The notes under the pieces were generated by a model. The model was given only the letters and a program-made list of their open reading frames with translations, was not told the origin of the DNA and searched no databases. Source: a virus. Taken from it: 37,639 nucleotides of DNA. This document shows positions 13,062-35,679 of this stretch, piece after piece; position 1 is the first letter of the stretch; every line of letters begins with the position of its first letter. Made by a program: the position numbers and the translations under genes. Location of the stretch: positions 1 through 37,639 of IMG/VR virus record IMGVR_UViG_3300044546_000477; one strand, given 5' to 3'.

Positions 13062-14645
13062 TTAATAAATAGTTAATTCCCATCGAATATTTCCACAATC
13101 ATATATTCTATATATTTTTCTATCAAACATAATTTGTTTTTCGGTTTTATCTTTATCATAACCTTCTTTGACTAAATTTGTTTTATTAAAATTAAACCTA
13201 TAATGTCTCTTATCGCCAATTACATACCAATAATTTGGTTTAGATTGTGAAATCATTTTAAAATTAAGTTTTTCATACATATTACCGTCAAATATTCTAA
13301 TATCTGAATATGATATTAATTTTTGTGGTTTGTATGTTCTAATAAACGATTGTAATAATCTTGATGCCGAACCAATTACATTTGTATTTAACTTATTACA
13401 AAATCTATTTAATTCCCATTCATCACTTTTACCACCCATAATAATTCTACCTTTTGAAAAGGTCATAAGTGAAATTAATTCATCATTATAATATAAACCT
13501 AACTTAACACTTGAATTTACAACACCTTGAATGTGATTATCAGTTAAAAACTTTTTAGTTTCATTAACGGAAACATTTCTAATTTCACATTTCCTAGCAT
13601 AAATTCTATTTTCACTAATGTTTAATTTATTTTTAATAATTGATTTAACAATTTCTTTTTTATAAATCCATTCATCTTCAAAAATATGAACCAAGCTAAT
13701 TCCCAGATTTTTACATTTGTTTGTTTTATCTAAATGATATGTTGGAGTTTTAAATAATTCGTTATGCCAATAAAGACCATTAAATTCAAAACCGATATTA
13801 TGTTCCGGAATAAACAAATCAACCTCAACTTTTGAATTTGGTAATTTATAATTTGTAATATGTTTAATATTAAGTTCATTTAAGAATCTGGATATTTCTT
13901 CTTCATAACCACTCCTTTGACTAAATCCAACTGGATTACAAGTTAGACAACATTCGTAATTTCTTTTATATCGTTCATATAATAATTGTTTAGAAAGTTC
14001 GGATTCATTCTTACAAATCGGACAAACAATAATAATCGAACCTTTTTTAACATCTTTAAAATCAATATCCGGATATAAATTTATAAAATCTTTAATTAAT
14101 TTGTTTCGGTAGTTATTTGATTTTGCATAATTATCAACACCATACCTTATTTCACAAGTTCTTTTTTGTTTATCAATATTATTGTAATTACCATTACCAT
14201 AATAGAGTTCTTTGGTTTTTTTACTTTTTTCTACATTATTATAATTTTCATCCCCATACTTTTTTAGTTTGGTTTCTTTTTGTTTTTTTATGAAATCATT
14301 ATGTTGAGTGTAGAAATCAACACCATATTTTTTATTGAAAGTTTTCTTTTGTCTTTTAACCAGTTCATCCTTTGACTTATTCGCACAGGTCAAAGAACAG
14401 AAATCACCATATGGTTTATCAAATCTATTTCTAAATTTTATTTCGTTACCACAAGAAATACATTTAGGTCTTTCTGTTAAATTATGAAAATAAAAATATA
14501 TTTTTTCTTTAAATGTTATATTGTCTTGGATGTTTTTGGAATATTCAATTATTTTTGAATACAACTCTGGTTCATTATTATTTAACCATTTTTCATTGGT
14601 TTTATATCCAGATTTGTTGTTAGTTATAAAAAAAGAAAAATCCAT
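13062..14645 (-). CDS. Homing endonuclease, PD-(D/E)XK/Vsr-like with zinc fingers (copy A)
   Basis: The 527-residue protein has: an N-terminal domain (FFITNNKSGYKT...); a zinc finger (CISCGNEI ... CSLTC, about 58-86); four repeats built around KKYGxxxY (about 98-175); a second zinc finger (CPIC ... CLTC, about 207-237); a nuclease core with EVDLFIPEHNIGFEFNGLYW (about 275-295) and LVHIFEDEW; and a C-terminal domain (DNHIQG, RFCNKLN, YEKLNF, IYDCGNI). The acidic residues in DLFIP and FEFNG are the likely metal ligands. It is a paralogue of the gene at 15281, which lies on the other side of the tail tube gene in opposite orientation. Such free-standing nucleases insert near conserved phage genes and spread by cutting alleles that lack them. 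The exact family name is uncertain. Confidence 0.8.
   Translation of the reverse strand: MDFSFFITNNKSGYKTNEKWLNNNEPELYSKIIEYSKNIQDNITFKEKIYFYFHNLTERPKCISCGNEIKFRNRFDKPYGDFCSLTCANKSKDELVKRQKKTFNKKYGVDFYTQHNDFIKKQKETKLKKYGDENYNNVEKSKKTKELYYGNGNYNNIDKQKRTCEIRYGVDNYAKSNNYRNKLIKDFINLYPDIDFKDVKKGSIIIVCPICKNESELSKQLLYERYKRNYECCLTCNPVGFSQRSGYEEEISRFLNELNIKHITNYKLPNSKVEVDLFIPEHNIGFEFNGLYWHNELFKTPTYHLDKTNKCKNLGISLVHIFEDEWIYKKEIVKSIIKNKLNISENRIYARKCEIRNVSVNETKKFLTDNHIQGVVNSSVKLGLYYNDELISLMTFSKGRIIMGGKSDEWELNRFCNKLNTNVIGSASRLLQSFIRTYKPQKLISYSDIRIFDGNMYEKLNFKMISQSKPNYWYVIGDKRHYRFNFNKTNLVKEGYDKDKTEKQIMFDRKIYRIYDCGNIRWELTIY
13064..13074 (-). promoter_or_regulatory. TATTTAT-core promoter-like motif
   Basis: AACTATTTATT on the coding strand, 39 bases before the gp26-like ATG and overlapping the stop of the preceding endonuclease gene. 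A variant with one extra T pair (TATATTTTTATA, near 13038-13050) lies closer and is an alternative. Confidence 0.45.
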
Positions 14646-14659
14646 ACATTTACTATTTC

Positions 14660-14672
14660 TAATAAATATATG
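14660..14672 (-). promoter_or_regulatory. TATTTAT-core promoter-like motif
   Basis: CATATATTTATTA on the coding strand, 14 bases before the ATG of endonuclease copy A, in the 62-base gap after the tail tube gene. Confidence 0.55.
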
Positions 14673-14707
14673 GATTTATATTTTGGTTGTAAAGGGTGTG
14701 TAAAAAA

Positions 14708-15196
14708 TTAATAAACCAATATACAACGATCCATAACAATCGTTGAAGAGATTGTTGAAATTTCGTCTCCACCATATTTTAGTGACCCACCATCATATCC
14801 TGTAAGCCAAGCTCCTTCAAGAATCCATTTTTCAACAACAACTCCTGTTGGATCTAGCATTTCTAAATCAACATTTTTCTTATATCCGGCAGCGTAACCC
14901 ATACGACCAGTTACAGATTCTGCACAAGTTCTAAGCCATTCCATAATAGCTTGTGTTGCAGATGGTCCAATCGGATCTCTAAATGTAACCGGTAATGATT
15001 CCCAGTTAAACTTACCAGCAACATAAACTTCAGTATTTAAAAATGGTATTGCAACAGAATTAATTTTCAATTTTGGTCGTGATGTGCTCTCAACATACCA
15101 TTCATTTATCCCCAAAGAAGAAGGGAATCTCAAGATCCACCTATTGTTACGCTTCGGTTCGTAAGGGATAGGCATTTTCATTAATAAATCAGCCAT
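14708..15196 (-). CDS. 19: Tail tube protein, gp19-like
   Basis: At 162 residues it is practically the length of T4 gp19 (163). It starts MADLLMKMPIPYEPKRNNRW, continues with RFPSSLGINEWYVESTSRP and a strand-rich middle containing VTFRDPIGPSATQAIMEWL, and ends with LEGAWLTGYDGGSLKYGGDE and a last beta strand. This is the usual order of a T4-type tube monomer, which stacks as hexamers inside the sheath. In T4 the sheath gene directly precedes the tube gene. Here a HAD-fold gene and an opposing endonuclease gene lie between them. A promoter-like motif on its strand lies 58 bases before the start, inside the leader of the divergent endonuclease. Confidence 0.9.
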   Translation of the reverse strand: MADLLMKMPIPYEPKRNNRWILRFPSSLGINEWYVESTSRPKLKINSVAIPFLNTEVYVAGKFNWESLPVTFRDPIGPSATQAIMEWLRTCAESVTGRMGYAAGYKKNVDLEMLDPTGVVVEKWILEGAWLTGYDGGSLKYGGDEISTISSTIVMDRCILVY

Positions 15197-15211
15197 TTTT
15201 TTGTTTTTTTT

Positions 15212-15221
15212 AATATTTATG
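15212..15221 (+). promoter_or_regulatory. TATTTAT-core promoter-like motif, divergent pair (plus)
   Basis: AATATTTATG on the plus strand, 59 bases before the ATG of endonuclease copy B. It lies downstream of the opposing motif at 15255-15264, so the two divergent transcripts overlap. Confidence 0.5.
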
Positions 15222-15254
15222 TTTATATTTGTAAATTATATTATTTACATTAAT

Positions 15255-15264
15255 CATAAATATC
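15255..15264 (-). promoter_or_regulatory. TATTTAT-core promoter-like motif, divergent pair (minus)
   Basis: GATATTTATG on the minus strand, 58 bases before the tail tube ATG. With the plus-strand motif it forms a near-symmetrical inverted pair. Confidence 0.5.
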
Positions 15265-15280
15265 TTATAAAGTAAAAAAA

Positions 15281-16897
15281 ATGGACTTACTTAAATTTTT
15301 TATAGAAAATAATAATAGTGGGGCAAAAACTAAAGAATCTTTTTTAAAAAAAAATTACCCAGAATTATATTTGGATATAGTCAATTACACAAATAACGAT
15401 TTAATTAATTTACCCTTTAAACAAAAAATCTGGCACTTTATTAATAAAACCCAAAATCAACCAAAATGTCAGAATTGTGGTAATAATTTGAAATTTAAAA
15501 AATCGTTAACGGAAGGTTATGGTTTGTATTGTTCTATTTTATGTTCGAACAATTGTGAGATAAGAAAAACAAAAATCAAGAAAACCAATAATGATAAATA
15601 TGGTGGTAATGCACCTATTTGTTCTGATGTTATTAAGGATAAAGTAAAAGAGACTTTCTTAAACACATTTGGTGTTGATAATATCTTCAAGGATAAAGAA
15701 TATATCAAATCAAAAACAATCGCTAAATATAATGTCGACCATATTTCAAAACTTGAATCAACTAAAGAAAAAATAAAAAAAACAAACACTAATAAATATG
15801 GTGTTTCGACTCCTTTAATTTTACCGGAAATTAGACAAGTTGGTTTTGATAAAAAAAGTGAATGGTTTTATTCAAAATATAATAGTTTAAATGTTATTGA
15901 TTATACTGGAAAAACAATAACAATACAATGTGATTGTTGTAATAACAATTATGAGATTGAAAGGTCTTTATTGTATTATAGATTTGAAAATAATATAAAT
16001 CCTTGTAGTTTATGTAATCCGATAAATGAATTAAGGTCATTTAAGGAAAAACAAATTTGTGAGTTTTTGGATGAGCTTGGTATTGAATATGTTGAGAATG
16101 ATAGAACAATACTTAAAGGTCAAGAATTGGATATTTACATACCAGGACATAATATTGCTATCGAATTTGATGGTTTATTTTGGCATTCAGATAAATTCAA
16201 AGATAAACATTATCATACTTTAAAAACAGATGAATGTAAAAAACTAAACATTAGGGTAATTCATATTTTTGAAGATGAATGGGATAATAAAAAAGATATA
16301 GTAAAAAGTAGAATTAAAACATTAATGGGTCTTATTGAGACTCGTATTTTTGCTAGAAATTGTGAAATAAAATATGTTGATACAAAAACAAAAACAAAAT
16401 TCTTGGAAGAAAACCACATTCAAGGTTCAGTTGGTAGTAAATTTAATTTAGGATTGTATTATAATTCAGATTTAGTATCGATAATGACATTTGGTAAAAA
16501 AAGGTTGAATCTTGGATATAAAAAAACAAAAAATGATGAGTATGAATTACTTCGTTTTTGTAATAAATTAAATCACATTGTTGTTGGTGGGGCTTCCAAA
16601 CTCCTTAAAAGGTTTATCGTTGATTGCTCACCAAAAGAAATTATAAGTTATGCTGATAAAAGATGGAGTAATGGCAACCTATATGAAAAATTGAATTTTT
16701 CTTTTGTTAAAGATACGACACCAAATTATTATTACATTGTAAATAAAAAAAGAGAATCAAGATTTAAATATAGGAAAGATGTTTTGATTAGATTAGGGTA
16801 TGATTCAAACAAAAGTGAATTTGAAATAATGGAAGAACGAGGTATTCCAAAAATTTATGATTGTGGAAATTTATTATACAAAAAATCCCTAAAGTAG
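15281..16897 (+). CDS. Homing endonuclease, PD-(D/E)XK/Vsr-like with zinc fingers (copy B)
   Basis: The 538-residue protein has the same architecture as the gene at 13062-14645: N-terminal FFIENNNSGAKT, zinc finger CQNCGNNL ... CSILC, repeats around KYGxxxP/FGVDNIF, second zinc finger CDCC ... CSLC, nuclease core LDIYIPGHNIAIEFDGLFWH, VIHIFEDEW, then ENHIQGS, RFCNKLN, YEKLNF and IYDCGNL. Shared blocks are strong but the overall sequence is well diverged, so the two copies are old paralogues or separate arrivals. It is the only plus-strand gene in an otherwise minus-strand tail region and carries its own promoter-like motif and terminator, the mark of an inserted self-contained element. Nuclease activity is inferred. 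Confidence 0.8.
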   Translation: MDLLKFFIENNNSGAKTKESFLKKNYPELYLDIVNYTNNDLINLPFKQKIWHFINKTQNQPKCQNCGNNLKFKKSLTEGYGLYCSILCSNNCEIRKTKIKKTNNDKYGGNAPICSDVIKDKVKETFLNTFGVDNIFKDKEYIKSKTIAKYNVDHISKLESTKEKIKKTNTNKYGVSTPLILPEIRQVGFDKKSEWFYSKYNSLNVIDYTGKTITIQCDCCNNNYEIERSLLYYRFENNINPCSLCNPINELRSFKEKQICEFLDELGIEYVENDRTILKGQELDIYIPGHNIAIEFDGLFWHSDKFKDKHYHTLKTDECKKLNIRVIHIFEDEWDNKKDIVKSRIKTLMGLIETRIFARNCEIKYVDTKTKTKFLEENHIQGSVGSKFNLGLYYNSDLVSIMTFGKKRLNLGYKKTKNDEYELLRFCNKLNHIVVGGASKLLKRFIVDCSPKEIISYADKRWSNGNLYEKLNFSFVKDTTPNYYYIVNKKRESRFKYRKDVLIRLGYDSNKSEFEIMEERGIPKIYDCGNLLYKKSLK

Positions 16898-16911
16898 GAT
16901 TTAGGGATTTT
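16882..16911 (+). terminator. Hairpin terminator of endonuclease copy B, containing the stop codon
   Basis: A perfect 12-base stem AAAATCCCTAAA/TTTAGGGATTTT with loop GTAGGA is followed by a T-rich stretch. The TAG stop codon of the gene (16895-16897) lies in the loop, so the last codons form the left arm. Confidence 0.8.
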
Positions 16912-16977
16912 AATCATTTTTCTATTTACTTTGGATTATTTTTAATTATCCATATATTATATATAACTTAATATATA

Positions 16978-17811
16978 TTAATATTTAGTTTTCTTTCCTC
17001 CTGCTGTTAAATAAGTCTGTAATATATTATCTTTCTTTTTATCAAAATGTGTTTTCATCTTTTCTACATTTCTTACATCATCATCTGAAAAACCGATAAA
17101 TGGGGTAAAGTAGTTTGAAATTTTATTTTTCATAAAAGCTTTTTTCTGTAATCTGTGGGATAATAGTTTTACATATCTAATAAATTCTTCCATAGCATCA
17201 ATTTTTCCTTGTTCCGGATTCGTTGCCGAACCTTCACCAAATGATACTGGATGGAATCTACACATATCTAAATAAATTTCCACAAGTTCATCATCACTTA
17301 AATCTTCTTCATCAGCAAGGTCTCTATATTTTTTAAGATTTTTAACCAATGTTGATTTACTTAATCCGTGTTTATTTGAATTAATAAGTCTATGAACCGC
17401 TTCTTTTAAAATTGAAGGTGTGTGCCCTCTAGCGGTAACGATTGCGAAGATTGACCCATTATTAATAGCTTCTACAAAATCAGCCCACGCCGGTCCTGTT
17501 GGGGCTTTCATAGCGTCAGATAGGAATTTATCATCACCAGTCACTCTAAAGTCTCTAAACGGATCTTCGTCAAAACCAACAATTGTATTTCCTTTATAAT
17601 CAAAAGGTTCTTTTCCAATTTCAGTTCTATATTCCGCAAAATCTTCTGTTGACATACCAACCGGTTTTCCGTTATCGTCCTTCAAATAAATTTTTGTTGG
17701 CATAAACATCAAGTTATCGTCCCAGTCAAAAGCATAGTATTTCATTACTGGTGTTGATGTTTCATCAATTATTTCATTGATTAATTTTTTAATATAATTT
17801 TTCTGATTCAT
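16978..17811 (-). CDS. HAD-superfamily hydrolase-like protein with leader-like N-terminus
   Basis: The 277-residue protein shows HAD fold motifs: motif I FDWDDN (Asp29, Asp31), motif II IVTARGH (Thr126), a candidate Lys203 and motif IV GFSDDDVRNV (243-245). The first acidic pair is in place, so phosphatase or phosphotransferase activity is plausible, with unknown substrate. Residues 1-22 (YIKKLINEIIDE) are an amphipathic helix with two (I/L)xE sites before the enzyme domain, like the leaders of the genes at 23149 and 25646. It lies between sheath and tube genes. A promoter-like motif sits only 1-3 bases before this ATG, so a start at Met23 (MKYYAFDWDD, position 17745) would fit a normal leader better. 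I keep the longer start because of the leader. Confidence 0.72.
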   Translation of the reverse strand: MNQKNYIKKLINEIIDETSTPVMKYYAFDWDDNLMFMPTKIYLKDDNGKPVGMSTEDFAEYRTEIGKEPFDYKGNTIVGFDEDPFRDFRVTGDDKFLSDAMKAPTGPAWADFVEAINNGSIFAIVTARGHTPSILKEAVHRLINSNKHGLSKSTLVKNLKKYRDLADEEDLSDDELVEIYLDMCRFHPVSFGEGSATNPEQGKIDAMEEFIRYVKLLSHRLQKKAFMKNKISNYFTPFIGFSDDDVRNVEKMKTHFDKKKDNILQTYLTAGGKKTKY

Positions 17812-17812
17812 A

Positions 17813-17826
17813 TTAATAAATATTTG
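17813..17826 (-). promoter_or_regulatory. TATTTAT-core promoter-like motif, unusually close to start
   Basis: CAAATATTTATTAA on the coding strand, one base before the first ATG of the HAD-like gene. Either that mRNA is almost leaderless or translation starts at an internal ATG. Confidence 0.5.
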
Positions 17827-17835
17827 TTATAATAA

Positions 17836-17860
17836 AAAAGGGAGAACTTGTCTCCCTTTT
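17836..17860 (-). terminator. Hairpin terminator after the tail sheath gene
   Basis: A 10-base stem AAAAGGGAGA/TCTCCCTTTT with a 5-base loop, followed on the minus strand by a run of six T. It lies 18 bases after the sheath stop and before the promoter-like motif of the next gene. Confidence 0.85.
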
Positions 17861-17877
17861 CCTTTAATTTATTTTCA

Positions 17878-20800
17878 TTAGATATTGTCAAAAGATGCAC
17901 CAGTTGGTGTAATATAGAATGTAATATCTATAAATTCTAATGAACGAGTTGGTTTAATATAGATTTTACCAGTTAATTGATTTCTATCTAAATCAGCAGT
18001 ATCACTTGATACTGTAACTCGGAAATCATATAAACCTCTATCTCTTCTGATTGCGTCCAAGATTGGATTAACCGCGTTCAAGAAATCTTGTCTTACTTGT
18101 TCGTCGTTTTGATCGAATAATAATCTTACTGAAACAGCGGAGATTAATTTACGAGCTTGTAATAACAATCTTCTTACGTTGATTCTATCAAGAGCAGATT
18201 CTCTAATTTGAAGTGTTTTATTACCCCAGATTACGGTACCTACATCAGCAAATGTTGCAATTGGGTTAATTCGACCAACATAAAGAACATCTCTATCTTC
18301 TTGTGTTAATTTCTTACGAGCTTTAACAGCATTTACAATACCACGAGTATAACCAGCTGCCGCAAACCAAGGGAATGCGATATTATCTGTTAACGCCAAG
18401 TTTTTTGTAACTTCAGCCGTCGCAGGAATATAAATTTGTGTGTTATTTACAGTATCTCTTGTTAATACCCAAGGATAATATGTTGCAGTATAGTTAGAAT
18501 CAATTCCACTTTCTTCTAAATTATCAACAGCTTCTTGTGGGTAAATTAAGTTATCACCTTCAGTTGTTGAAGCAACAAGCATATTATAATCTGGTGTTGT
18601 TGTGATGTATAAAGAGTCAGCTCTATCATTTTCAATCATATCGATAGTTGCCTCAACTAAATCACTATTATATACATAATCAATACCTGGTGATACAAAT
18701 ACATTGATATTTACAGCTTCTGGGTTAGCAAATGTTCTAATACCAAGTAAATAAGCGTAGTAATCGGTATTTGCATAATCTACAGTTCCATCACCAATTG
18801 CGATTTGTTTGAATGCACCCCATCCTTTAGCTGTTGGGTATCTATCAGATACGCAAGCACCATTTAAGAATCCTTGACGACCTAATACATATTTGTCACC
18901 ATTTGTTCTATATTCTCTATAGATATCCCATCCATCAAAACCACCATTAACAAATAATGTGAATTTTCTTGAGAATAATCTATAATATGGACTATCTGGA
19001 TTTGTTGGTTCAGATGAAAACGCCGCGTCACCAACATAATATTTAGGTGTTCCACTTGTTGAGAATCCGCTTGAAATAGTAATGCCGCTTGCGAATTTAT
19101 CCATATGGAATCCTCTTGTTTTATAAGACCACTCACTACCTTCTAAATCACAAGATGAAATCGGGTTTCGTTTTCCTTTGTATTCAAAGAAACTTGTATC
19201 AAATCCGATATTACTTGACATACCAAGGAATGTTCTTCTAATATTATCACCAGAACTTCTAACAGCGTCGTCAGCTCCTGAAGCCAAACCAAATGGTGGG
19301 TTATAAACTACTTCACCTGGGAAATCATATTTAGTTTTATAAACAGGGAATGGAGATTTAACACCAGCATATTCTCTAAATGCATAACCTTCGAAACCAC
19401 AAGCTACAGCATCAACTGGTGCATCCTCATTCATTTCAACCATAATATATTTAGAATTCAATTCAAATTCACCATCTAATGTACCAATTTTCTTAGCAAT
19501 AAAGTTATTTTGTGATGGATCCATAGAACAATTTGTAAATTTTTCAATTACTACTGGATTTGAATCAACATCAAAATAATCTCTAACTAATACATCAAAT
19601 GTTCTATTGGCGAATGAAATATTAATGATTGAAATTTTAACTTCACTATTTGCTGAATTACCGTCAGATATTGTGTAGAACTTAAACAAGTTAAATGTTT
19701 TAGTACCTCTTAATTCCGATACAACCCAAGGAGAACTTGGTGATTGGAATTTTTCCAAATACCACCCAATTGAGTTTGAGTCTTCACTTTGAGCAGAATC
19801 AAGAGCTGTAAGTTCAGCACTTAAACCTCTAATATATCCTTTTTTCCATCCATAATTTAAAAGAGCTTGGAATCTTTCTTCCAAGAATAATGGTGTTGAA
19901 GTTCTTGGTTTTCCGAAGTTTGTTCCACCAAATACTTTTGCAATATATTGTGAATCGGATTGACTAAATGATGTTTCAAAAATAAAGTTTGTTCCAGAAT
20001 CATTTGTAACATTTACAGCAAATGGTAAATATGGATTTTTAAGAACACCACTATATTGTCCTGACATATTAAGTGTTACATTAGTAGTATTAGAAACTTC
20101 AAATACTGGATTGTTTTCATCTGAATATGTTGCAATACCTCTTGATCTTAATGTGGCAACAACCAAATCATCATAATCGGAATATGAAACACCAGAATAT
20201 AAATAGATTTGACCCACAACAACCCCAGAATAACAATCAACATTTACCGGAGTTGGGGTTGGTGTTGGAGATGTTAATGGTGTTGATGTAACACAAGGAT
20301 TTACCGGTGATGGTGAAGGTGTTGGTGTTGGAACCTGTGTTGTGGTTGTTGTTACAACTGGGAACACTTCAGTTAAACCAGACACAAATGTGAAGAATGA
20401 AAAACCAGAATATAAACCATTATTTGTATTATCAAATAAAGCGTAATACCAAGCATCATTATTCGGTGATGTATAATCAGTTAAATCAGCCGAAGGTGAT
20501 GGAACATTAAATACATTCGTTTCACCAGTAAGACCCATTGAAACTAAATCGTTATAATCGTCACCCCAGATAGAACCAAAATAACTAATATTTGTTGCTT
20601 CAGCTGTTGTTGGTGATGTGTCTGTTATAATGTTAAAAATTTGATCTTTAATATTTGTATCAAGTGTTGAGATTGAGCCATCAAAATTTTCATATTGTTC
20701 AGTCAACATATTCTCAATAAGACTTGGGAATGATATTTCATATTGAATTGTATCTTCAGAATTGGTACATCCAGTAAACGGAACAACGAAAGGAATTGCA

Positions 20801-21222
20801 ACCGGGACATAACATACTGGTAAACAATCAACTGTTGCACCACTAGCACATTGGAATTCTATTGTTGATGGGTTGACATTCGCTTTAGTTACGATAGACC
20901 AAGATGGTCCAGCGTCATAACCGGATAGACCTAATATTCTTGTAACAAATAATTGGTTTGATTGTTGTAAATATGATTTAGCAATATATGCTGCCTCATA
21001 TTTTGGAATTTGTGTGTTCACAAATTTTTCAGGTGATGTTCCCCCAAAGTAGGCTTGAAATTCATCGTAGTTTTTGATAAAGATTGGTTCAAAAGCAGGA
21101 CCTTTCAAAGTTTCTCCTGCAATACCCAAAGTTGTTACACCAACACTTTGTGCAACAAAACTTAAATCAACTTCCGAAGTATAAACACCTGGTGAAACAA
21201 ATACTTTACTGTTAGTTGCCAT
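17878..21222 (-). CDS. 18: Tail sheath protein, gp18-like, enlarged
   Basis: The N-terminus KVFVSPGVYTSEVDLSFVAQ with TTLGIAGETLKGPAFEP is typical of contractile sheath proteins. The C-terminal part contains INVFVSPGIDYVYNSD, ARKLISAVSVRLLFDQND and a final domain (RDRGLYDFRVTVSSDTAD, LTGKIYIKPTRSLEFIDITF) that forms the inner ring contacting the tube. At 1114 residues it is far longer than T4 gp18 (659). The extra mass lies between the two conserved ends and includes a Thr/Pro-rich linker at about residues 288-330 (VVTTTTTQVPTPTPSPSP) with Cys-containing flanks, so extra surface domains are likely. Promoter-like motif 33 bases upstream and a strong terminator downstream suggest a single-gene transcript, suitable for a protein needed in many copies. 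Confidence 0.9.
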   Translation of the reverse strand: MATNSKVFVSPGVYTSEVDLSFVAQSVGVTTLGIAGETLKGPAFEPIFIKNYDEFQAYFGGTSPEKFVNTQIPKYEAAYIAKSYLQQSNQLFVTRILGLSGYDAGPSWSIVTKANVNPSTIEFQCASGATVDCLPVCYVPVAIPFVVPFTGCTNSEDTIQYEISFPSLIENMLTEQYENFDGSISTLDTNIKDQIFNIITDTSPTTAEATNISYFGSIWGDDYNDLVSMGLTGETNVFNVPSPSADLTDYTSPNNDAWYYALFDNTNNGLYSGFSFFTFVSGLTEVFPVVTTTTTQVPTPTPSPSPVNPCVTSTPLTSPTPTPTPVNVDCYSGVVVGQIYLYSGVSYSDYDDLVVATLRSRGIATYSDENNPVFEVSNTTNVTLNMSGQYSGVLKNPYLPFAVNVTNDSGTNFIFETSFSQSDSQYIAKVFGGTNFGKPRTSTPLFLEERFQALLNYGWKKGYIRGLSAELTALDSAQSEDSNSIGWYLEKFQSPSSPWVVSELRGTKTFNLFKFYTISDGNSANSEVKISIINISFANRTFDVLVRDYFDVDSNPVVIEKFTNCSMDPSQNNFIAKKIGTLDGEFELNSKYIMVEMNEDAPVDAVACGFEGYAFREYAGVKSPFPVYKTKYDFPGEVVYNPPFGLASGADDAVRSSGDNIRRTFLGMSSNIGFDTSFFEYKGKRNPISSCDLEGSEWSYKTRGFHMDKFASGITISSGFSTSGTPKYYVGDAAFSSEPTNPDSPYYRLFSRKFTLFVNGGFDGWDIYREYRTNGDKYVLGRQGFLNGACVSDRYPTAKGWGAFKQIAIGDGTVDYANTDYYAYLLGIRTFANPEAVNINVFVSPGIDYVYNSDLVEATIDMIENDRADSLYITTTPDYNMLVASTTEGDNLIYPQEAVDNLEESGIDSNYTATYYPWVLTRDTVNNTQIYIPATAEVTKNLALTDNIAFPWFAAAGYTRGIVNAVKARKKLTQEDRDVLYVGRINPIATFADVGTVIWGNKTLQIRESALDRINVRRLLLQARKLISAVSVRLLFDQNDEQVRQDFLNAVNPILDAIRRDRGLYDFRVTVSSDTADLDRNQLTGKIYIKPTRSLEFIDITFYITPTGASFDNI
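20230..20360 (-). repeat. Thr/Pro-rich degenerate repeat in the sheath gene
   Basis: Degenerate GGTGTTGGT-type repeats on the plus strand encode runs of TP, SP and TTTTT. Such tracts can vary in length by slippage and usually form extended, exposed linkers. Confidence 0.65.
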
Positions 21223-21255
21223 AGATTTTAAATTTTATGTTTTTAATTTATTTTA

Positions 21256-21267
21256 TTATAAATATTG
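21256..21267 (-). promoter_or_regulatory. TATTTAT-core promoter-like motif
   Basis: CAATATTTATAA on the coding strand, 33 bases before the tail sheath ATG. Confidence 0.55.
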
Positions 21268-21299
21268 TGTTTTTTGTCAAAAACTTTACTTAAACAAAA

Positions 21300-21309
21300 C
21301 TATTTATAT
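21300..21309 (+). promoter_or_regulatory. TATTTAT-core promoter-like motif
   Basis: CTATTTATAT, 34 bases before the ATG of the small ribbon-helix-helix gene. It is divergent from the sheath promoter-like motif, 32 bases away. Confidence 0.45.
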
Positions 21310-21343
21310 TTTGGTAAGATTTTTTTCTACCTTTTTTCTACCT

Positions 21344-21508
21344 ATGGAGCAAAACACAAAAAAGATTAAAAATTTAAAGATTGATAAGGATGTTCACGAC
21401 ATCTTAAAAAAGTATTGTGATAAACGAGGTTTAAAAATGTATAAGTTCCTTGAAGGACTTATAATCGAAAAGTGTAAAGAAAAAAGAGATATATATGGTG
21501 AAGATTAA
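21344..21508 (+). CDS. Small ribbon-helix-helix type DNA-binding protein
   Basis: The 54-residue product (MEQNTKKIKNLKIDKDVHDI...) has one beta strand, KIKNLKIDKDV, followed by two helices, HDILKKYCDKRG and KMYKFLEGLIIEKC. This is the layout of Arc/MetJ/CopG-type repressors, which bind DNA as dimers through the strand. I chose the ATG at 21344 rather than the TTG at 21311 because the extra residues (VRFFSTFFLP) do not belong to this fold. It is divergent from the sheath gene and its last 4 bases overlap the convergent end of the tail completion gene. It may regulate neighbouring late genes; that role is inference. Confidence 0.65.
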   Translation: MEQNTKKIKNLKIDKDVHDILKKYCDKRGLKMYKFLEGLIIEKCKEKRDIYGED

Positions 21509-22545
21509 ATAAGTTCCTGAATGAATATAATTTCAGACTCTTTTGTATTATCATCTTTAGTAATATTAATTCTCAAGATATCTCCGGTATTTATCTGAAC
21601 TTCACTTAAATTACTACCATAATAATCATCATTAATAAAAATCTGATATTCATCAACATTTTTGTTTGTTGATAATTTAAGATTTACCGTGTATTCAAAA
21701 GTATATACAGATACTAAATCACCAACTTTGTAAGTTGGAATATATGTTGGTGGAATCTGTGGTTCTGGTTTTTTTTGTTTTTTCTTTTTTATAGATGTAT
21801 CTGTTTCGTAAATTTGAAAAGTTCTTGTAATTGCCGGTCTAATCTCAAATTCGTCTTCATCCATTAAAAACCCTTGAAGGGTAAATTCATATTTCTGAAG
21901 ATATACTTTTCTTTTTTCTAAATCCATTATTGATTCATCAGAAATATTTCCCATAATAATTGGGATATAGTGCCCTTTGATTACTTGGTATGCTTGTTTT
22001 GATGCAAATTTTGTAAGAACAATTTGATTAAACTTATTTAACTCACGCATTCTATTACACACAATAACCACGGTATATTTAATATCAACTGGTATTGGTT
22101 GTGGTATTTTATAAATGTCAAAACCATTTCTTTGTCCGTCCCAAGTTGGTACTTTAGCATAATAATATTGTCTTCTTTCTGGAATATTAAGTGTCATTAA
22201 AGATGGGTTATTCCCATATGTCACTTCTGGAGAACGAACTACTGCAACAAATGGTGGTTCGACATTCTTGTCGATATTTTGAAAATCCCAAGTTTCGGTA
22301 AATTGCACCCAATTCTGTGTTGTTATTAAAATATCAACCATAGGTATTGTTTTACCCTCAACAACACATTTTAATTTGTCACGAACAAAATCTAAAAAAC
22401 CTCTATCCAAATCTGGATGTAATAATGATTTAGGTAGATATGTTCCATCTTGAGAAATCATATCAGCAATTTCGTGTCTTCTTGGTAGAAGAATTTTCTT
22501 ATCTATAAGGTCAATATTTTTTTTAATTTTTTTTGGTAATCCCAT
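21505..22545 (-). CDS. 15: Tail completion/sheath stabiliser protein, gp15-like
   Basis: The 346-residue protein starts at the ATG at 22545 (MGLPKKIKKNIDLIDKKI), one base after the stop of the preceding neck gene. The longer frame from a TTG at 22590 would overlap that gene by 44 bases. Residues about 150-250 hold IPVDIKYTVVIVCNRMRELNKF and a strand-rich part, similar in layout to T4 gp15 (272 residues), which caps the tail tube and sheath. A Lys-rich linker (KKKKQKKPEP) leads to a C-terminal beta domain of about 85 residues that gp15 lacks. The order neck gp14-like, gp15-like, sheath matches T4. Identification rests on position and length more than on motifs. Confidence 0.6.
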   Translation of the reverse strand: MGLPKKIKKNIDLIDKKILLPRRHEIADMISQDGTYLPKSLLHPDLDRGFLDFVRDKLKCVVEGKTIPMVDILITTQNWVQFTETWDFQNIDKNVEPPFVAVVRSPEVTYGNNPSLMTLNIPERRQYYYAKVPTWDGQRNGFDIYKIPQPIPVDIKYTVVIVCNRMRELNKFNQIVLTKFASKQAYQVIKGHYIPIIMGNISDESIMDLEKRKVYLQKYEFTLQGFLMDEDEFEIRPAITRTFQIYETDTSIKKKKQKKPEPQIPPTYIPTYKVGDLVSVYTFEYTVNLKLSTNKNVDEYQIFINDDYYGSNLSEVQINTGDILRINITKDDNTKESEIIFIQELI

Positions 22546-23148: not shown

Positions 23149-23733
23149 TTATCTGTATTTACTTGATATTATTGGCCTAACAAATGAATCACAGATTGGT
23201 CCAATTTTTTCCCCTTTACTTTTTTTAATTGTAAGAGGTGAACATAATGCTTTAATTTTATTTTCTGAATCTGTAATCATTCTATCAGCAATATCATTTT
23301 CATTATCATTTATAATTTCAGGAATAAAGGAATTCCAACCCTTTTTGGTTGATATTTTACCCCATTCTTTTAAAAACTCATTTTGAGTTTTTAAATCAAA
23401 ATTTTTCCATTCTTTTTCGACCTCTAACATTTTTTTTCTACCTTCACCTGTAATGTCCAAACCTTCTATCGCATTTGCTAATTTATTTGCACTAATTTTA
23501 GCACGATTTGCATCACCTAAAGGCCAAGAGTTAAACCCCTCACTATTTAACCACACTGTGCCTTGTTCATTATCAAACCCCATACCAGGGCTATTTACTG
23601 GTTCATATACTAATCTATATTCGACATAGTAGTTTATTTCTTCGTTTAAATAGTATTTTTGAGTATTTTCTTTAATAACTCGTTTAACAATTCTTGCTAA
23701 ATCTGATTCTGTTAATCTAACTATTCTTTTCAT
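23149..23733 (-). CDS. Leader-bearing protein of unknown function (I)
   Basis: The 194-residue protein begins MKRIVRLTESDLARIVKRV followed by IKEN. This basic amphipathic helix is almost the same as the start of the 140-residue protein at 25646, while the remainder (195-type residues from about 24 on) is unrelated to it. The body contains a YVEYRLVYEPVNSPGMGFDN segment and a mostly helical C-terminal half with two Cys (ALCSPL, GPICDS). The IKE just before Asn23 fits the (I/L)xE cleavage rule of T4 prohead protease gp21. I therefore suggest a capsid-targeted internal protein whose leader is removed during head maturation. The mature function is unknown. It is a single-gene unit with own promoter-like motif and terminator. 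Confidence 0.75.
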   Translation of the reverse strand: MKRIVRLTESDLARIVKRVIKENTQKYYLNEEINYYVEYRLVYEPVNSPGMGFDNEQGTVWLNSEGFNSWPLGDANRAKISANKLANAIEGLDITGEGRKKMLEVEKEWKNFDLKTQNEFLKEWGKISTKKGWNSFIPEIINDNENDIADRMITDSENKIKALCSPLTIKKSKGEKIGPICDSFVRPIISSKYR

Positions 23734-25645: not shown

Positions 25646-26068
25646 ATGAAAAAAATAATAAGACTAACAGAAAACGATTTAGTTCGTATCGTAAAAAGAG
25701 TTTTAAACGAAAATTTTTCAGAACAAAAAACTTTTGGTGATTTAGAATTTGTTACTGAAAAACAAGATGGTTCAGACAGAAAAGTAAGAGTTTACGCTAA
25801 AAAAATGCCTATGTATAGTGTAATTGCTTTAATTTTAGAAACTAAAAAAGGTGATAATGTAAAATATTTAGGTAAAGTAGGTGTGACAGTAAAATATGAA
25901 AATGGTGAAGAAACAGTAACAATTACTGACGATTATCCTGGAAATATTAAAGGTTTTGTTGAAATGAAAAGTTACGATGATGTTGATTTTATTAGAGAAT
26001 TTGTTGAAAGAGCTCATCGTTTTGGTAAAGCAAAATCGGATTGGTTAAATGTTCCAAAGCTAAGATAA
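25646..26068 (+). CDS. Leader-bearing protein of unknown function (II)
   Basis: This 140-residue protein begins MKKIIRLTENDLVRIVKRV followed by LNEN, matching the leader of the gene at 23149 at most positions. LNE fits the (I/L)xE rule for a T4 gp21-type protease. After the leader there is a beta-rich body of about 110 residues (RKVRVYAKKMPMYSVIALIL, KYLGKVGVTVKYENGEETVT) and a short C-terminal helix (FIREFVERAHRFGKAKSDWL). No enzyme motif is seen. The proposal is the same as for the other leader protein: packaged in the head and processed. It lies between the helicase and the superoxide dismutase fusion on the same strand, each with its own promoter-like motif. Confidence 0.72.
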   Translation: MKKIIRLTENDLVRIVKRVLNENFSEQKTFGDLEFVTEKQDGSDRKVRVYAKKMPMYSVIALILETKKGDNVKYLGKVGVTVKYENGEETVTITDDYPGNIKGFVEMKSYDDVDFIREFVERAHRFGKAKSDWLNVPKLR

Positions 26069-26119: not shown

Positions 26120-28219
26120 ATGAAAGTTATTATAAAACATATTGATTCTGGTCTTTCATCTGAAGACAAGAAAATGTATAACGATTTTATCAAATTTATA
26201 AACTCAAAATATCCTGTTGATAAAGATTTAACAATTTTATTTCTTGGTAATAAAAAGGGACATATGTCAACTGGTTCTCAAGATATGAATGGTGTTATAA
26301 AAGTTTTATCAAAAAATAGATTAAACCGAGATATAATGAGAACTTTAGCTCACGAATGGGTTCACGCCCATCAGAGATTAGTTCTTGGTAGAGAAAGAGG
26401 TCCGGACATTGGTGGTCAGAATGAAGATGAAGCAAATGCGTTTGCCGGACAACTGATTAAAATGTTTGAAAAAGATAAACCAGAATATAATGAATTGGTA
26501 TTTGAAAATTCAAAACCACTAATAAAAAAACTGGATCTTTTAAAGGAAGAAATTCTTAAAACAGAAAAACAAAATTTACACGAAGAATTTATTACTGAAA
26601 TGAAAAAAATTGGTATTGAAAAACTACCATATTCATATTCAACAATGAAACAATTTGTGGATCCTAAAACAATGGATATCCATTATAATAAACATTATAA
26701 AGGTTATGTTAAAAAATTAAATTCTGCCTTATCCGATAAAAAGGGTGAAATGGAACTTGAAGATATTATAAGAACAATATCAAAATTTGATAAAAAAGTT
26801 AGAAATAATGCTGGTGGTGCTTTTAATCACGCTTTATTTTGGAAGATGCTTTCACCAAAAAAACAATTACCAAAAGGAGAAATTTTTGAAAAGATTAAAA
26901 ATCAATATGGTAATTTGAAAAAACTTAAAGATGAGTTTAATCAATCAGCAAAAGATAGTTTTGGTTCTGGGTGGGTTTGGTTAATTCTTACAAAGTCAAA
27001 TAATTTAAAAATTATGACGACGCCAAACCAAGATAATCCACTTATGAATATTGTAAAAGGTGGTGGTTATCCATTACTTGGTCTTGATTTATGGGAACAC
27101 GCATACTATTTAAAATATCAAAACAAAAGAGATGAATACATAAATAACTTCTGGAATCATATAAATTGGGAATTTGTTAATGATTTATATGAAACTAAAT
27201 CAAAAAAGAAATTAAACGAATCAATAAGAAAAATTATTGTTGAAAATGATACTATGGATTATGATTTAAAAAAAGCAATGGGTCGTGAATTACAAAAAAT
27301 TAGACTTATTCCTTTGGACGCCGAATCCGCATCAGAAGCAGTTAAAAACATTACAAGTGCTGAAATTCAAAGGGGTAATCTTGATTTTAATAGAACACTT
27401 GAAGGTCTTATGTCGCTTAATTTGAGTAATGTGTCAGAAAGATCAAAATATAGATTTAATAATTATTTTCAAAGGTTTGTAAAAAGTAAGTCAAGGGGTC
27501 TTGATTTTGAAGGTATGGTTGCCGGATTTTTAAATGGTAATTTAGCAACAAGTAATGTTTCACCATTTGATGTTTCAACACCAGCTGGTGATAAAATTTC
27601 TTGTAAAATTGTTAGAAGTCAAAAAGAACGAATAATACTTAAAAGTATTAAAGAAACATTGGGTCAATATTTAGCCAACTATTCTGGTTCTGAAGAAAAC
27701 AAACAAGAATTGTTAAAGATGAGCAAACAACCAAATTTTCTTAGATTATTGGTAAATCACGAAAACCAAGATTTGAGAAATCAAGCCGAAGATATTTTGG
27801 GATTTTTACTTACAGACATCACGGGGTTATTGGTTGGTATCCCAAATGAAACAAAAGTTGGGATTGATTTATATTATTATGATAAAAATAAAATTATTGA
27901 TCTTGCTAACACACCAGGATTATTAAATGCCGGAAAATCACCAGAAGCACAAACAATATCATTATCAACAAAAATACTTAGCGGTGACAAAACTATGTCT
28001 GGATTTATTCAGTTTCCACTTTTAACAATTGATGATTATAAATCGTTTTTAATTGGTGATGAAAAAACAAATGAAGTTTTAAATTTATTTAATCAACTTG
28101 GAAATAAATATGGTGTCCAGAGACTTGGAGACAATTTACCACAAGACATTATTAGAGATTTATCTAAAAATGAAAGATTTAAAATAGATCTTAGAAGATT
28201 AGTTAATACAAAGTCTTGA
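26120..28219 (+). CDS. Metallopeptidase-superoxide dismutase-C-terminal domain fusion
   Basis: The product is 699 residues with three parts. Residues 1-150: zinc peptidase-like domain with HEWVH (78-82) and a downstream EDEANAFA (102-109) that can give the third ligand, as in gluzincins of the ImmA/M78 kind. Residues about 160-358: Fe/Mn superoxide dismutase with all four metal ligands, His188, His237, Asp323 and His327 (in LDLWEHAYY), plus Tyr196. Gly233 and Gln304 (in PNQDNPLM) are the second-sphere pattern of Mn rather than Fe enzymes. Residues 365-376 (LNESIRKIIVEN) resemble the leader sites of neighbouring proteins. Residues 380-699 are a domain I cannot name, with E464, D484 and K496 spaced as in a weak PD-(D/E)XK pattern. 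Location next to neck and leader genes suggests a virion protein; this is inference. Confidence 0.85.
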   Translation: MKVIIKHIDSGLSSEDKKMYNDFIKFINSKYPVDKDLTILFLGNKKGHMSTGSQDMNGVIKVLSKNRLNRDIMRTLAHEWVHAHQRLVLGRERGPDIGGQNEDEANAFAGQLIKMFEKDKPEYNELVFENSKPLIKKLDLLKEEILKTEKQNLHEEFITEMKKIGIEKLPYSYSTMKQFVDPKTMDIHYNKHYKGYVKKLNSALSDKKGEMELEDIIRTISKFDKKVRNNAGGAFNHALFWKMLSPKKQLPKGEIFEKIKNQYGNLKKLKDEFNQSAKDSFGSGWVWLILTKSNNLKIMTTPNQDNPLMNIVKGGGYPLLGLDLWEHAYYLKYQNKRDEYINNFWNHINWEFVNDLYETKSKKKLNESIRKIIVENDTMDYDLKKAMGRELQKIRLIPLDAESASEAVKNITSAEIQRGNLDFNRTLEGLMSLNLSNVSERSKYRFNNYFQRFVKSKSRGLDFEGMVAGFLNGNLATSNVSPFDVSTPAGDKISCKIVRSQKERIILKSIKETLGQYLANYSGSEENKQELLKMSKQPNFLRLLVNHENQDLRNQAEDILGFLLTDITGLLVGIPNETKVGIDLYYYDKNKIIDLANTPGLLNAGKSPEAQTISLSTKILSGDKTMSGFIQFPLLTIDDYKSFLIGDEKTNEVLNLFNQLGNKYGVQRLGDNLPQDIIRDLSKNERFKIDLRRLVNTKS

Positions 28220-28240: not shown

Positions 28241-29365
28241 ATGGCAATTATATCTGAACCAGGAAGGAGTGACCTTTATAAAAAAGTAAGACATTTACTT
28301 GGTGCCCCTTTAAGAAGTGTTGAATTAGAAGACGAGCAAATGGATACTCTTTTGGAATTTTCTATTGATGAGTATTCACAATATGTCCAAGATTGGTTAA
28401 TCGAATCTCAATGGACGGCACTAAATAATCTTAATCTTGACACACAATCTCTAACAAAAGCATTCACAACAAAAAGTTTAGATTATGAAACAAGATACAC
28501 ATATGCTTATTCCAAGATTGTTGGTCTACAGGCTGGTGGTGATTGGGTATTAAAAAAGGATTATATTCAGTTAGTTAAAGGGCAACAAATTTATGAGATT
28601 CCGGCAAATAGAGAATTAAATGAATTATTATGGTTCGCACCCCCAACAATGAATAATCTTATATTTGATCCTTGGTCCTTTGGTGGTATTGGCGGTGGTG
28701 GTATTGGTGGTGTTGGTGGATACGCTCAAATTGGTAATATGGCCGGTAGTTATTTTTTAACACCAGCGTTTGATATGTTATTGAGAATGCAAGAAATCAA
28801 TATCCAGAAAAGAATTATACAAGGCGATTTAACATATAGAGTTACCGCATTACCAGATGGTAAGAAAGCGATTCATTTAATGAATACCCCAGGTGGTAAA
28901 TTTGATTTTGGAAATTCTTCTTTAATGAAAGGAAAAGTTTGGTATTGGTATTATGATGTTGGTCCGGAAGATAGAGATAAGTGTTTAAAAGATAATCCAG
29001 ATATTATTAAACTACCTTCCGATGTTCCTTTTGAACAGATGAGTTGGCACGATTTAAATAATCCAGCTCAAATTTGGGTTAGAAGATGGTTTATTGCTTA
29101 TTGTAAAGAAACACTATCGAAAGTTAGGGGTAAATTTAGTGGTAATTTAAAAACGCCAGATGGTGATTTAACAATGGAATGGCAAACATTAGCGACAGAA
29201 GCCAAAGACGAAAAAACAAAATTGATTGACGAACTTATTGGTGCTGAAGGAAGATTAACCAGATTAAAACCAGAAAAGGTTATGGAAAGAGAAGCACAAA
29301 TTGCAGAAAACTTAAATAAACAGCTCAAATTTAGAGCAATGCCAAGACAAATTTATGTTATATGA
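28241..29365 (+). CDS. 13: Neck/head completion protein, gp13-like
   Basis: The 374-residue protein starts with a helical segment (YKKVRHLLGAPLRSVELEDEQM, then LLEFSIDEYSQYVQDWL), as in head-tail connector proteins. A Gly-rich insertion (GGIGGGGIGGVGG) lies at about residues 147-160. The C-terminal third has WVRRWFIAYCKETLSKVRGK followed by DGDLTMEWQTLATEAKDEK, a pattern I associate with T4-type neck proteins of the gp13 type (T4 gp13, 309 residues). It would complete the head below the portal and bind the gp14-like protein. In T4 genes 13 and 14 are adjacent. Here they lie about 5 kb apart on opposite strands. Its stop overlaps the next start (ATGA). Confidence 0.65.
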   Translation: MAIISEPGRSDLYKKVRHLLGAPLRSVELEDEQMDTLLEFSIDEYSQYVQDWLIESQWTALNNLNLDTQSLTKAFTTKSLDYETRYTYAYSKIVGLQAGGDWVLKKDYIQLVKGQQIYEIPANRELNELLWFAPPTMNNLIFDPWSFGGIGGGGIGGVGGYAQIGNMAGSYFLTPAFDMLLRMQEINIQKRIIQGDLTYRVTALPDGKKAIHLMNTPGGKFDFGNSSLMKGKVWYWYYDVGPEDRDKCLKDNPDIIKLPSDVPFEQMSWHDLNNPAQIWVRRWFIAYCKETLSKVRGKFSGNLKTPDGDLTMEWQTLATEAKDEKTKLIDELIGAEGRLTRLKPEKVMEREAQIAENLNKQLKFRAMPRQIYVI

Positions 29366-34545: not shown

Positions 34546-35679
34546 TTATGATGGTATTTCCGTTGCGAAACAGATTTCACCTTGTTCTTTTATTAATCTT
34601 TCCATATCTTTAAATGATATATAAGCGGAACCATATTGACCCCAACTTTTACCCCAACTATTTTTTAATCTAAATTGTTTTTTATTTGTGTCAACACCAT
34701 TAATTACATAAGCGTGACCTCCAGCTAAACTACCACCAATTTTTATTAAACCATTTCTGTCCGGATAAAACATACTATTATACCAGTTTGTCCCAACGAC
34801 AACCGGACCTACATTTAAAATTGTATCAATTAATGTTTGAAGATTGTAACCCCAGTAATAGTTCTTCACTTTACCCATTTTTTGTAGGTATTTAACACCA
34901 CCTCTTACTGATGTTCCGTCGTAGTTTTCACCAAACCATTCATCTAACTTTTGTGCGTTTTCATATATCACTTTTGGTTGAATAATCGGTGCAACACCAG
35001 ATTGTCCTACTGGACCATCTTCTAACCAATGAGCCCAAGAAAAACCAACACAATGCGGTGTATTTTTTTGGTCTCCCCACCATCCATTATTATCCCAATA
35101 CCGTGATGTTAATTTATTTGTTGGTTTTGATGTTAATAAATGATTCTCTATTAAATAACTACCATCCCTTTCATCTGGTTTATAGGTCCTACCCAAAAAG
35201 AATTCTGGTTCTAAATTTAATAATGATGTGGTTGTGGTTGTTGTAACCGGAATAACTGGTGTCGATACACAACAAGGAAATTCGGAAACATAACAACTTT
35301 CATATGGAAGGTCGTCAGCAATAAAACTTTCTTGTATGTTTATATATAGTTTATCTCTTATTGGAAGAATTAAAGTTCCTTGGTCGTTTCTAAATAAAAA
35401 CTGACCTTCATACCTACCAATTTTTTTTGTGTCTTTAGATGTGAATTGATAATATACATAATACTCCACCGGAGCGTTCGGATCCATAAGATCCTTTTTT
35501 ACAAATCCGGCTGGTCTTGAAGTTATTTTTGGGACGCCGGTTTCAGTGTCGACCATTGAAAAAAATATTGCCGACTCCTCAATAAAATTCATAAAACTAT
35601 TGTAATCACTACGACCATCTTTCACCACCGTTAATTTTAACAATGGTAATGTTGCGTTTTTTTTAATGTAGAATTCCAT
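34546..35679 (-). CDS. Virion-type protein fused to a papain-like (C1) cysteine protease
   Basis: The 377-residue protein has an N-terminal beta-rich domain (1-125; KKNATLPLLKLTVVKDGRSD, YYVYYQFTSKD) that looks like a phage structural module. A Thr-run linker follows (PVTTTTTTS, 144-152). The C-terminal papain-like domain has oxyanion Gln204, catalytic Cys210 (QKNTPHCVGFSW), His322 (AGGHAYVINGV) and Asn340 (LKNSWGKSWG). All four catalytic-site residues are present. No signal peptide or long pro-region is seen. It may digest host surface proteins during adsorption or process virion proteins. It is placed directly before the repetitive fibre gene, which supports an exposed location. That localisation is inference. 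A promoter-like motif lies 12 bases upstream. Confidence 0.85.
   Translation of the reverse strand: MEFYIKKNATLPLLKLTVVKDGRSDYNSFMNFIEESAIFFSMVDTETGVPKITSRPAGFVKKDLMDPNAPVEYYVYYQFTSKDTKKIGRYEGQFLFRNDQGTLILPIRDKLYINIQESFIADDLPYESCYVSEFPCCVSTPVIPVTTTTTTSLLNLEPEFFLGRTYKPDERDGSYLIENHLLTSKPTNKLTSRYWDNNGWWGDQKNTPHCVGFSWAHWLEDGPVGQSGVAPIIQPKVIYENAQKLDEWFGENYDGTSVRGGVKYLQKMGKVKNYYWGYNLQTLIDTILNVGPVVVGTNWYNSMFYPDRNGLIKIGGSLAGGHAYVINGVDTNKKQFRLKNSWGKSWGQYGSAYISFKDMERLIKEQGEICFATEIPS

Follow-up and report, generated by a model that had tools for sequence, protein, structure and literature searches.

A candidate prohead-protease-processed polyprotein carrying a superoxide dismutase in T4-like phages

In phage T4, the prohead protease gp21 cleaves after L/I-X-E, and the internal proteins are brought into the head by N-terminal capsid targeting sequences of about 10 residues that gp21 removes (PMC9026906). 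The system described here is like that of T4 IPI, IPII, IPIII and Alt in its short leaders, L/I-x-E sites, S77 protease and capsid protein, and its cargo, too, is presumed to leave the head together with the DNA (PMC9026906). Contrary to the T4 internal head proteins, the leaders are here internal linkers in a multi-enzyme chain with an N-terminal peptidase domain, and the putative cargo consists of superoxide dismutase (SOD) and nuclease-like domains. A gp21-related prohead protease also cuts head-packaged proteins past a short Glu-ending motif in the giant phages phiKZ and SPN3US; in the relevant passages, the motif of phiKZ differs (S/A-x-E), the cargo of both phages is unrelated and a multi-enzyme chain is undescribed (PMC9026906). 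One virus, chlorovirus PBCV-1, offers a precedent for a SOD inside the particle: it packages an active Cu/Zn SOD, and its infections show less superoxide than those of a relative without the gene (PMC7019647). This enzyme, however, is a free-standing protein of an unrelated SOD family and the host is a eukaryotic alga. Finally, freshwater Bacteroidetes phages encoding bS21, with genomes of up to 331 kb and predicted Bacteroidetes hosts, were described from oxic lake water (PMC9723584).

The window that we analysed, a viral stretch of 37,639 nt taken as a whole, contains an ORF at 26120..28219 (+) with an ATG start, 699 codons and no internal stops. Its 699-aa product comprises a zincin-like domain, a SOD and a nuclease-like tail, and the ORF is kept in at least 58 distinct related proteins. 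A preliminary description of this DNA had placed it among neck and leader genes, and this setting is indeed found. A neck (head-tail adaptor) gene lies directly downstream at 28241..29365 (+) (phrog_211, E 8.9e-10). An adjacent stand-alone leader gene at 25646..26068 (+) encodes 140 aa beginning with MKKIIRLTENDLVRIVKRVLNE/N (a slash marks here the end of a leader or leader-like motif), a leader class shared with many genes of the related genomes G003 and G001, and a second leader gene, at 23149..23733 (-), encodes 194 aa beginning with MKRIVRLTESDLARIVKRVIKE/N.

On its sequence, the middle domain is certainly a Fe/Mn superoxide dismutase. Both Pfam halves scored over their cut-offs (Sod_Fe_N, E 2.9e-19, 69.8 bits against 27; Sod_Fe_C, E 1.4e-38, 131.4 bits against 20.9) and together span residues 166-355 of a domain of about 166-360. 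The best PDB match is the Mn-SOD 5a9g (E 3e-60, residues 151-363), and this clear similarity to solved Mn-SODs settles the fold. The metal ligands H188 (26681-26683), H237 (26828-26830), D323 (27086-27088) and H327 (27098-27100), all encoded on the + strand, are identical across 59 aligned proteins; nor does this alignment show any variation at G233, Q304, H192, Y196, W241, W325, E326 or Y330. The complete SOD claimed in the preliminary description is borne out; Gly233, Gln304 and the Mn-SOD top matches favour the Mn type proposed there over the Fe type, while sequence alone does not set the metal. Residues 161-367 (26600..27220, +), supported by Pfam, PDB and the alignment and with borders drawn from the L/I-x-E sites, would be the mature SOD, a putative active dismutase whose active site is apparently intact. 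The nearest cellular SODs are mostly from Bacteroidota (Ferruginibacter, 52% identity, and other Chitinophagaceae). The phage SOD resembles a bacterial Bacteroidota Mn-SOD in its whole fold and active site, but it sits between L/I-x-E linkers and other enzymes. In the tree, the phage SODs form one group of their own (support 100/99), with one MAG contig, binned as Fluviicola, as the single outsider. This outsider (L272:1420-2145, 241 aa) has a long branch and a leader-like start, MNLKIVDILRE/G; its contig may be viral.

The N-terminal domain, residues 1-130 (26120..26509, +), contains HEWVH at residues 78-82 (26351-26365, +) and E102 (26423, +). H78, E79 and H82 of this HExxH motif and E102 are invariant in the 59 aligned proteins. 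The peptidase and tail domains were modelled with AlphaFold and the models were compared against solved structures. The peptidase model (mean pLDDT 86.6, pTM 0.75) matched 1oz9, a YbeY relative (Z 9.8, rmsd 2.9, 108 residues), ERAP2 (Z 9.4, rmsd 3.4, 113 residues) and the protease Wss1 (Z 9.2, rmsd 3.1, 109 residues). As modelled, the domain is a minimal zincin and a putative peptidase, in accordance with the HExxH peptidase-type domain first proposed. ImmA/IrrE, a candidate family because of an EDEAN motif, gave no Pfam family match and was absent from the fold matches listed. Pfam, PHROGs and NCBIfam were uninformative on the peptidase, on the tails and on those leader-gene cargoes that were compared with them, and profiles built from the peptidase and tail alignments hit the PDB at chance level only. 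A free-standing relative of the peptidase is encoded by Synechococcus phage B23. A host origin of the fusion was rejected, since none of the 33 candidate stretches retrieved from a collection of 84,980 species' genomes was confirmed as a peptidase-domain relative.

After residue ~362, the chain either ends, giving proteins of 362-365 aa (27 of the 85 distinct SOD ORFs), or continues into one of several tails, for a total length of 466 to 736 aa (the other 58). The tails are unrelated to one another, and some are also found as stand-alone genes. The further domain of about 320 residues reported earlier is thus present here, but as one of several interchangeable tails and not as a constant part of the protein. 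In the window, it corresponds to a restriction-endonuclease-like cargo domain at residues 376-699 (27245..28216, +), of which stand-alone copies exist. Almost all the fold matches listed for its model (mean pLDDT 85.3, pTM 0.80) are restriction endonucleases or Holliday-junction resolvases; the best, 3ndh, has a middling Z of 7.5 (rmsd 4.5, 166 residues), followed among others by NhoI (Z 7.3), HinP1I (7.2) and PvuII (6.4). The tail alignment has invariant E, P-x-D and S-C-K (E98, D118 and K130 in A2 numbering), with S128 in the place of the usual E/D. Because the match list is consistent and these residues are invariant, a PD-(D/E)XK-type fold is likely, and the tail is a putative nuclease with Ser replacing the usual acidic residue. 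Such S-x-K sites are present in active restriction enzymes, for example NgoMIV and Cfr10I. In one relative (L098:4891-6938), a gene of the 699-aa type is broken inside the tail domain into frames of 602 and 78 aa, by either a frameshift or a sequencing error.

To look at the domain borders, invariant L/I-x-E was sought in the first 420 residues of 83 distinct peptidase-SOD proteins. Only two alignment positions were invariant, and both fall in the linker that joins the peptidase to the SOD: L141-K142-E143 (26540..26548, +), with [LI]xE in 83/83 proteins, and I158-T159-E160 (26591..26599, +), directly ahead of the SOD. The middle residue is variable, with four kinds at the first site and seven at the second. 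When two leader-only forms were added, E160 was found in 85/85, P3 was L or I only, and P2 took eight kinds. A third site, L365-N366-E367 (27212..27220, +), marks the start of the tail module, and [LIV]xE is present near this junction in 58/58 distinct tailed ORFs. The stricter pattern [LIV]xE[SNT] matched 54 of them, although in five of these 54 it caught LYET, the true LNE/LTE site being a few residues further on; the other four have LRE or INE near the junction by inspection. A possible further site, I373-V374-E375 (27236..27244, +), corresponds in sequence to the leader end ILNE of stand-alone cargo copies. The 27 tail-less ORFs stop before the tail junction, so that the linker sites alone remain. 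If cut after E160 and E367, the chain would yield a SOD of 207 residues, a normal length for this enzyme. What the preliminary description calls a fusion to a protease is better seen as a polyprotein, the parts of which probably come apart.

The tails are also met behind leaders. The tail of L079 is 72% identical to the product of L079_8064 from the second residue of the latter onward, leader included, and the tails of L031/L032 share 84-90% identity with leader genes close by, within one contig group. Free-standing copies of tails start with MKIIITESQYKLIKEN..., MKIIITENQSDKI... and similar sequences. The tail type of the window occurs alone behind a leader ...DILNE/M, as MDNIYYTIAEQKMERLNDILNE/M... 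and similar (L247, L254, L255, L259, L260). Moreover, in the lineage L248-L253 and L261 the SOD has no peptidase and directly follows a leader ...DILSE/AK. In L248/L249 of this lineage, the only one in which the SOD protein has an N-terminal leader, the SOD stands behind MEQKAQLLKESILIKEDILSE/AKRIGIDKLPFGY... and is followed by two further cargo stretches. The chain of L249:2321-4957 (878 aa, no peptidase domain) runs from leader to SOD to a first cargo, which contains a nuclease-like D...QVK stretch, then through a leader-like ITEN/IITKEQ segment to a restriction-enzyme-like cargo. At L032:5046-8963, five paralogous leader genes of ~149 aa flank the SOD gene on its two sides, a sixth lies further away, and the tail of the SOD gene is another copy of them; recombination within this array is likely to give rise to swapped tails.

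Leaders are abundant in the relatives. A leader pattern, [LIV][TNSK]E within the first 14 residues, was found in 42/292 proteins of G003 and 28/238 of G001, compared with 1-18 and 2-13 proteins when windows further along the chain were taken, and about a tenth of the ORFs in the 304-kb genome fit it. Dozens of genes of unknown function in G003 and G001 (L103-L132) have leaders of the classes RLTESDLTRIVKRVINE, MKIIITESQ, MKKFIITEEEKSRILGMHK, MKELIRHIIKEE and MNLKESIKKVLREE; none of the ten larger leader genes of G003 compared with Pfam had a match over the cut-off. Head-module genes also have leader-like starts, MKFGLIKSRIENILTE/G and MLNDIIKKILRE/A, as do proteins of the cultured Flavobacterium phage immuto, for example MRTLQEKYNAIQEGKFSKEHFIAE/A. 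A leader peptide used as a tblastn query found no match in isolated phages, a result of little weight given the shortness of the query. In the window itself, a gene at 16978-17811 (-) encodes 277 aa starting with MNQKNYIKKLINEIIDE/TS and continuing with YYAFDWDDNLMFMP, which may be a leader followed by an enzyme of the HAD type. Another at 34546-35679 (-) has a papain-like peptidase domain (phrog_16701, E 9e-55), and its N-terminal module, MEFYIKKNATLP..., recurs in relatives with other C-termini.

An S77 prohead protease (Pfam PF03420) is encoded in G001, G002, G003, G006 and G009, while records without it may be fragments. One of the carriers, G001, encodes a protein 90% identical to the polyprotein of the window. 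The major capsid protein of the relatives contains ...ENQAS(F/H/Y)LINE/A; a pattern count gave INE/A in 42 of 47 distinct N-termini, and the other five were read as an upstream LYE/N. In T4 gp23, an LTE/A site lies at the corresponding position.

A search of the viral collection with the fused protein found 201 stretches encoding relatives, and a peptidase profile found 340; both are counts of stretches, several contigs being near-copies. The relatives belong to T4-like phages, with contigs reaching 257-304 kb. In the gene tables that were read, the order is constant: a SNF2/UvsW-like helicase, the SOD gene, the neck gene, a small gene and an opposite-strand DNA polymerase, small leader genes sometimes intervening between the helicase and SOD genes. 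The number of viral stretches with relatives and this constant order together rule out that the fusion is an assembly error. Among isolated phages, the fusion was found in none of a 50,697-record collection, and a search with the DNA polymerase gave distant relatives only. On the reverse strand, the head module has a gene resembling that of ribosomal S21 (TIGR00030, E 2e-4, which is under the cut-off). The same placement is found in the bS21-encoding freshwater Bacteroidetes phages, which are likewise large and T4-like (PMC9723584). Superoxide dismutase goes unmentioned in that paper, and the two groups may be one, judging from gene arrangement only. The source, a lake virus, is probably a T4-like jumbo phage of Bacteroidota. 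The window also carries, among its tail genes, two homing-endonuclease genes of one family, one on each strand, at 13062-14645 (-) and 15281-16897 (+). Unusually long portal, terminase and helicase ORFs of 954-1340 aa were seen at G001 14400-22492, L027:2189-5134 and L079:3108-5972, and intein-like stretches in the portal ORF of G001 and the helicase ORF of L023.

The explanation that we favour, with modest confidence, is that the protein is a polyprotein processed by the prohead protease, which loads a SOD of ~207 aa and other enzymes into the head for delivery on infection. One chain comprising the zincin-like peptidase, the Mn-SOD and the nuclease-like tail would be made; its linkers would serve as leaders in the manner of T4 capsid targeting, and the chain would enter the prohead with the core. 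A gp21-like S77 protease would then cut past L/I-x-E at E143, E160, E367 and possibly E375, freeing the ~207-aa SOD and the separate cargo domains. The freed enzymes would stay in the head beside the DNA and pass with it into the next host, where the SOD would clear superoxide during takeover. The idea of a packaged and delivered enzyme, first put forward in the preliminary description, gains indirect support: L/I-x-E sites that follow the T4-type prohead-protease rule lie on either side of the SOD, the tails are cargo modules that also occur behind leaders resembling capsid-targeting sequences, and in one lineage a leader directly precedes the SOD. Relatives also encode the S77 prohead protease and a capsid protein with LINE/A. 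Packaging, cutting, the loading of metal, ejection and the benefit to the phage are inferred. Several points weigh against it. The N-terminus of the window protein is the zincin domain with no capsid targeting sequence, so that targeting would need an internal signal, unlike in T4, and the tail-less forms retain the linker sites only. The linker is a helix in the AlphaFold model, and its L and E could be conserved for other reasons. The SOD is bigger than T4 IPI and might have to be unfolded for portal passage, and the prohead protease gene is absent from the window contig, itself a fragment that stops short of the corresponding region. The protein is thus not a strict T4 internal protein by its sequence, its leader not being N-terminal, although it may work like one. 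A bolder form, to which we give slightly less than an even chance, is a general delivery system of 'beads on a string', in which leader-cargo units chained around a central Mn-SOD would be cut apart inside the head by the prohead protease; the resulting takeover enzymes (antioxidant, protease, nucleases), a set that changes, would be injected along with the DNA.

Alternatively, the protein could be an ordinary intracellular auxiliary enzyme, an unpackaged multidomain fusion that lowers superoxide during replication, with the linkers as helical spacers. This would agree with the window protein starting without a leader, and with free SODs being annotated elsewhere among phages, for example in Pseudomonas phages of the PA5oct group and in Vibrio phage 2.275.O. 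It would leave unexplained why invariant L/I-x-E is confined to domain borders, why tails have leaders and are exchanged with leader genes, and why one SOD lineage begins with a leader, and we consider it unlikely. Less probable still, at about one chance in ten, a packaged SOD would shield the particle, keeping superoxide off the packaged DNA in sunlit oxic water instead of acting in the host; the evidence for packaging serves it equally and the matching bS21 phage group came from oxic lake water (PMC9723584), but co-packaged peptidase and nuclease-like cargo fit host takeover better than storage. An internal translation start at Met161, the fusion being then an overlap of two products with a free SOD as one of them, is very improbable: Met161 is present in 83/85 proteins, but the leader-only forms have Ala at 161 and start ~20 residues upstream, and a variable P2 beside fixed L/I and E would not be accounted for. 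Finally, a purely structural, non-catalytic use of the SOD fold, the scaffolding alternative of the preliminary description, is hardly credible even though the gene adjoins the neck gene in the contigs read, since the metal ligands, the second-sphere residues and every other catalytic residue checked are invariant.

Altogether, the parts of the favoured prohead-processed polyprotein are of known kinds: Mn-SOD, zincin, PD-(D/E)XK-like fold, T4-type leaders and prohead protease. Their union in a multi-enzyme chain with internal leader-like linkers is undescribed as far as searches of the open-access literature on phage or virion SOD and on phage polyproteins go. If packaging and delivery hold true, a phage would deliver an antioxidant enzyme together with its genome, which would suggest that superoxide matters in the first minutes of infecting aerobic Bacteroidota. 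The T4 capsid-targeting idea, so far concerned with a handful of small proteins, would be widened to a large and modular system of cargo, and the leader alone would predict which proteins of unknown function get injected.
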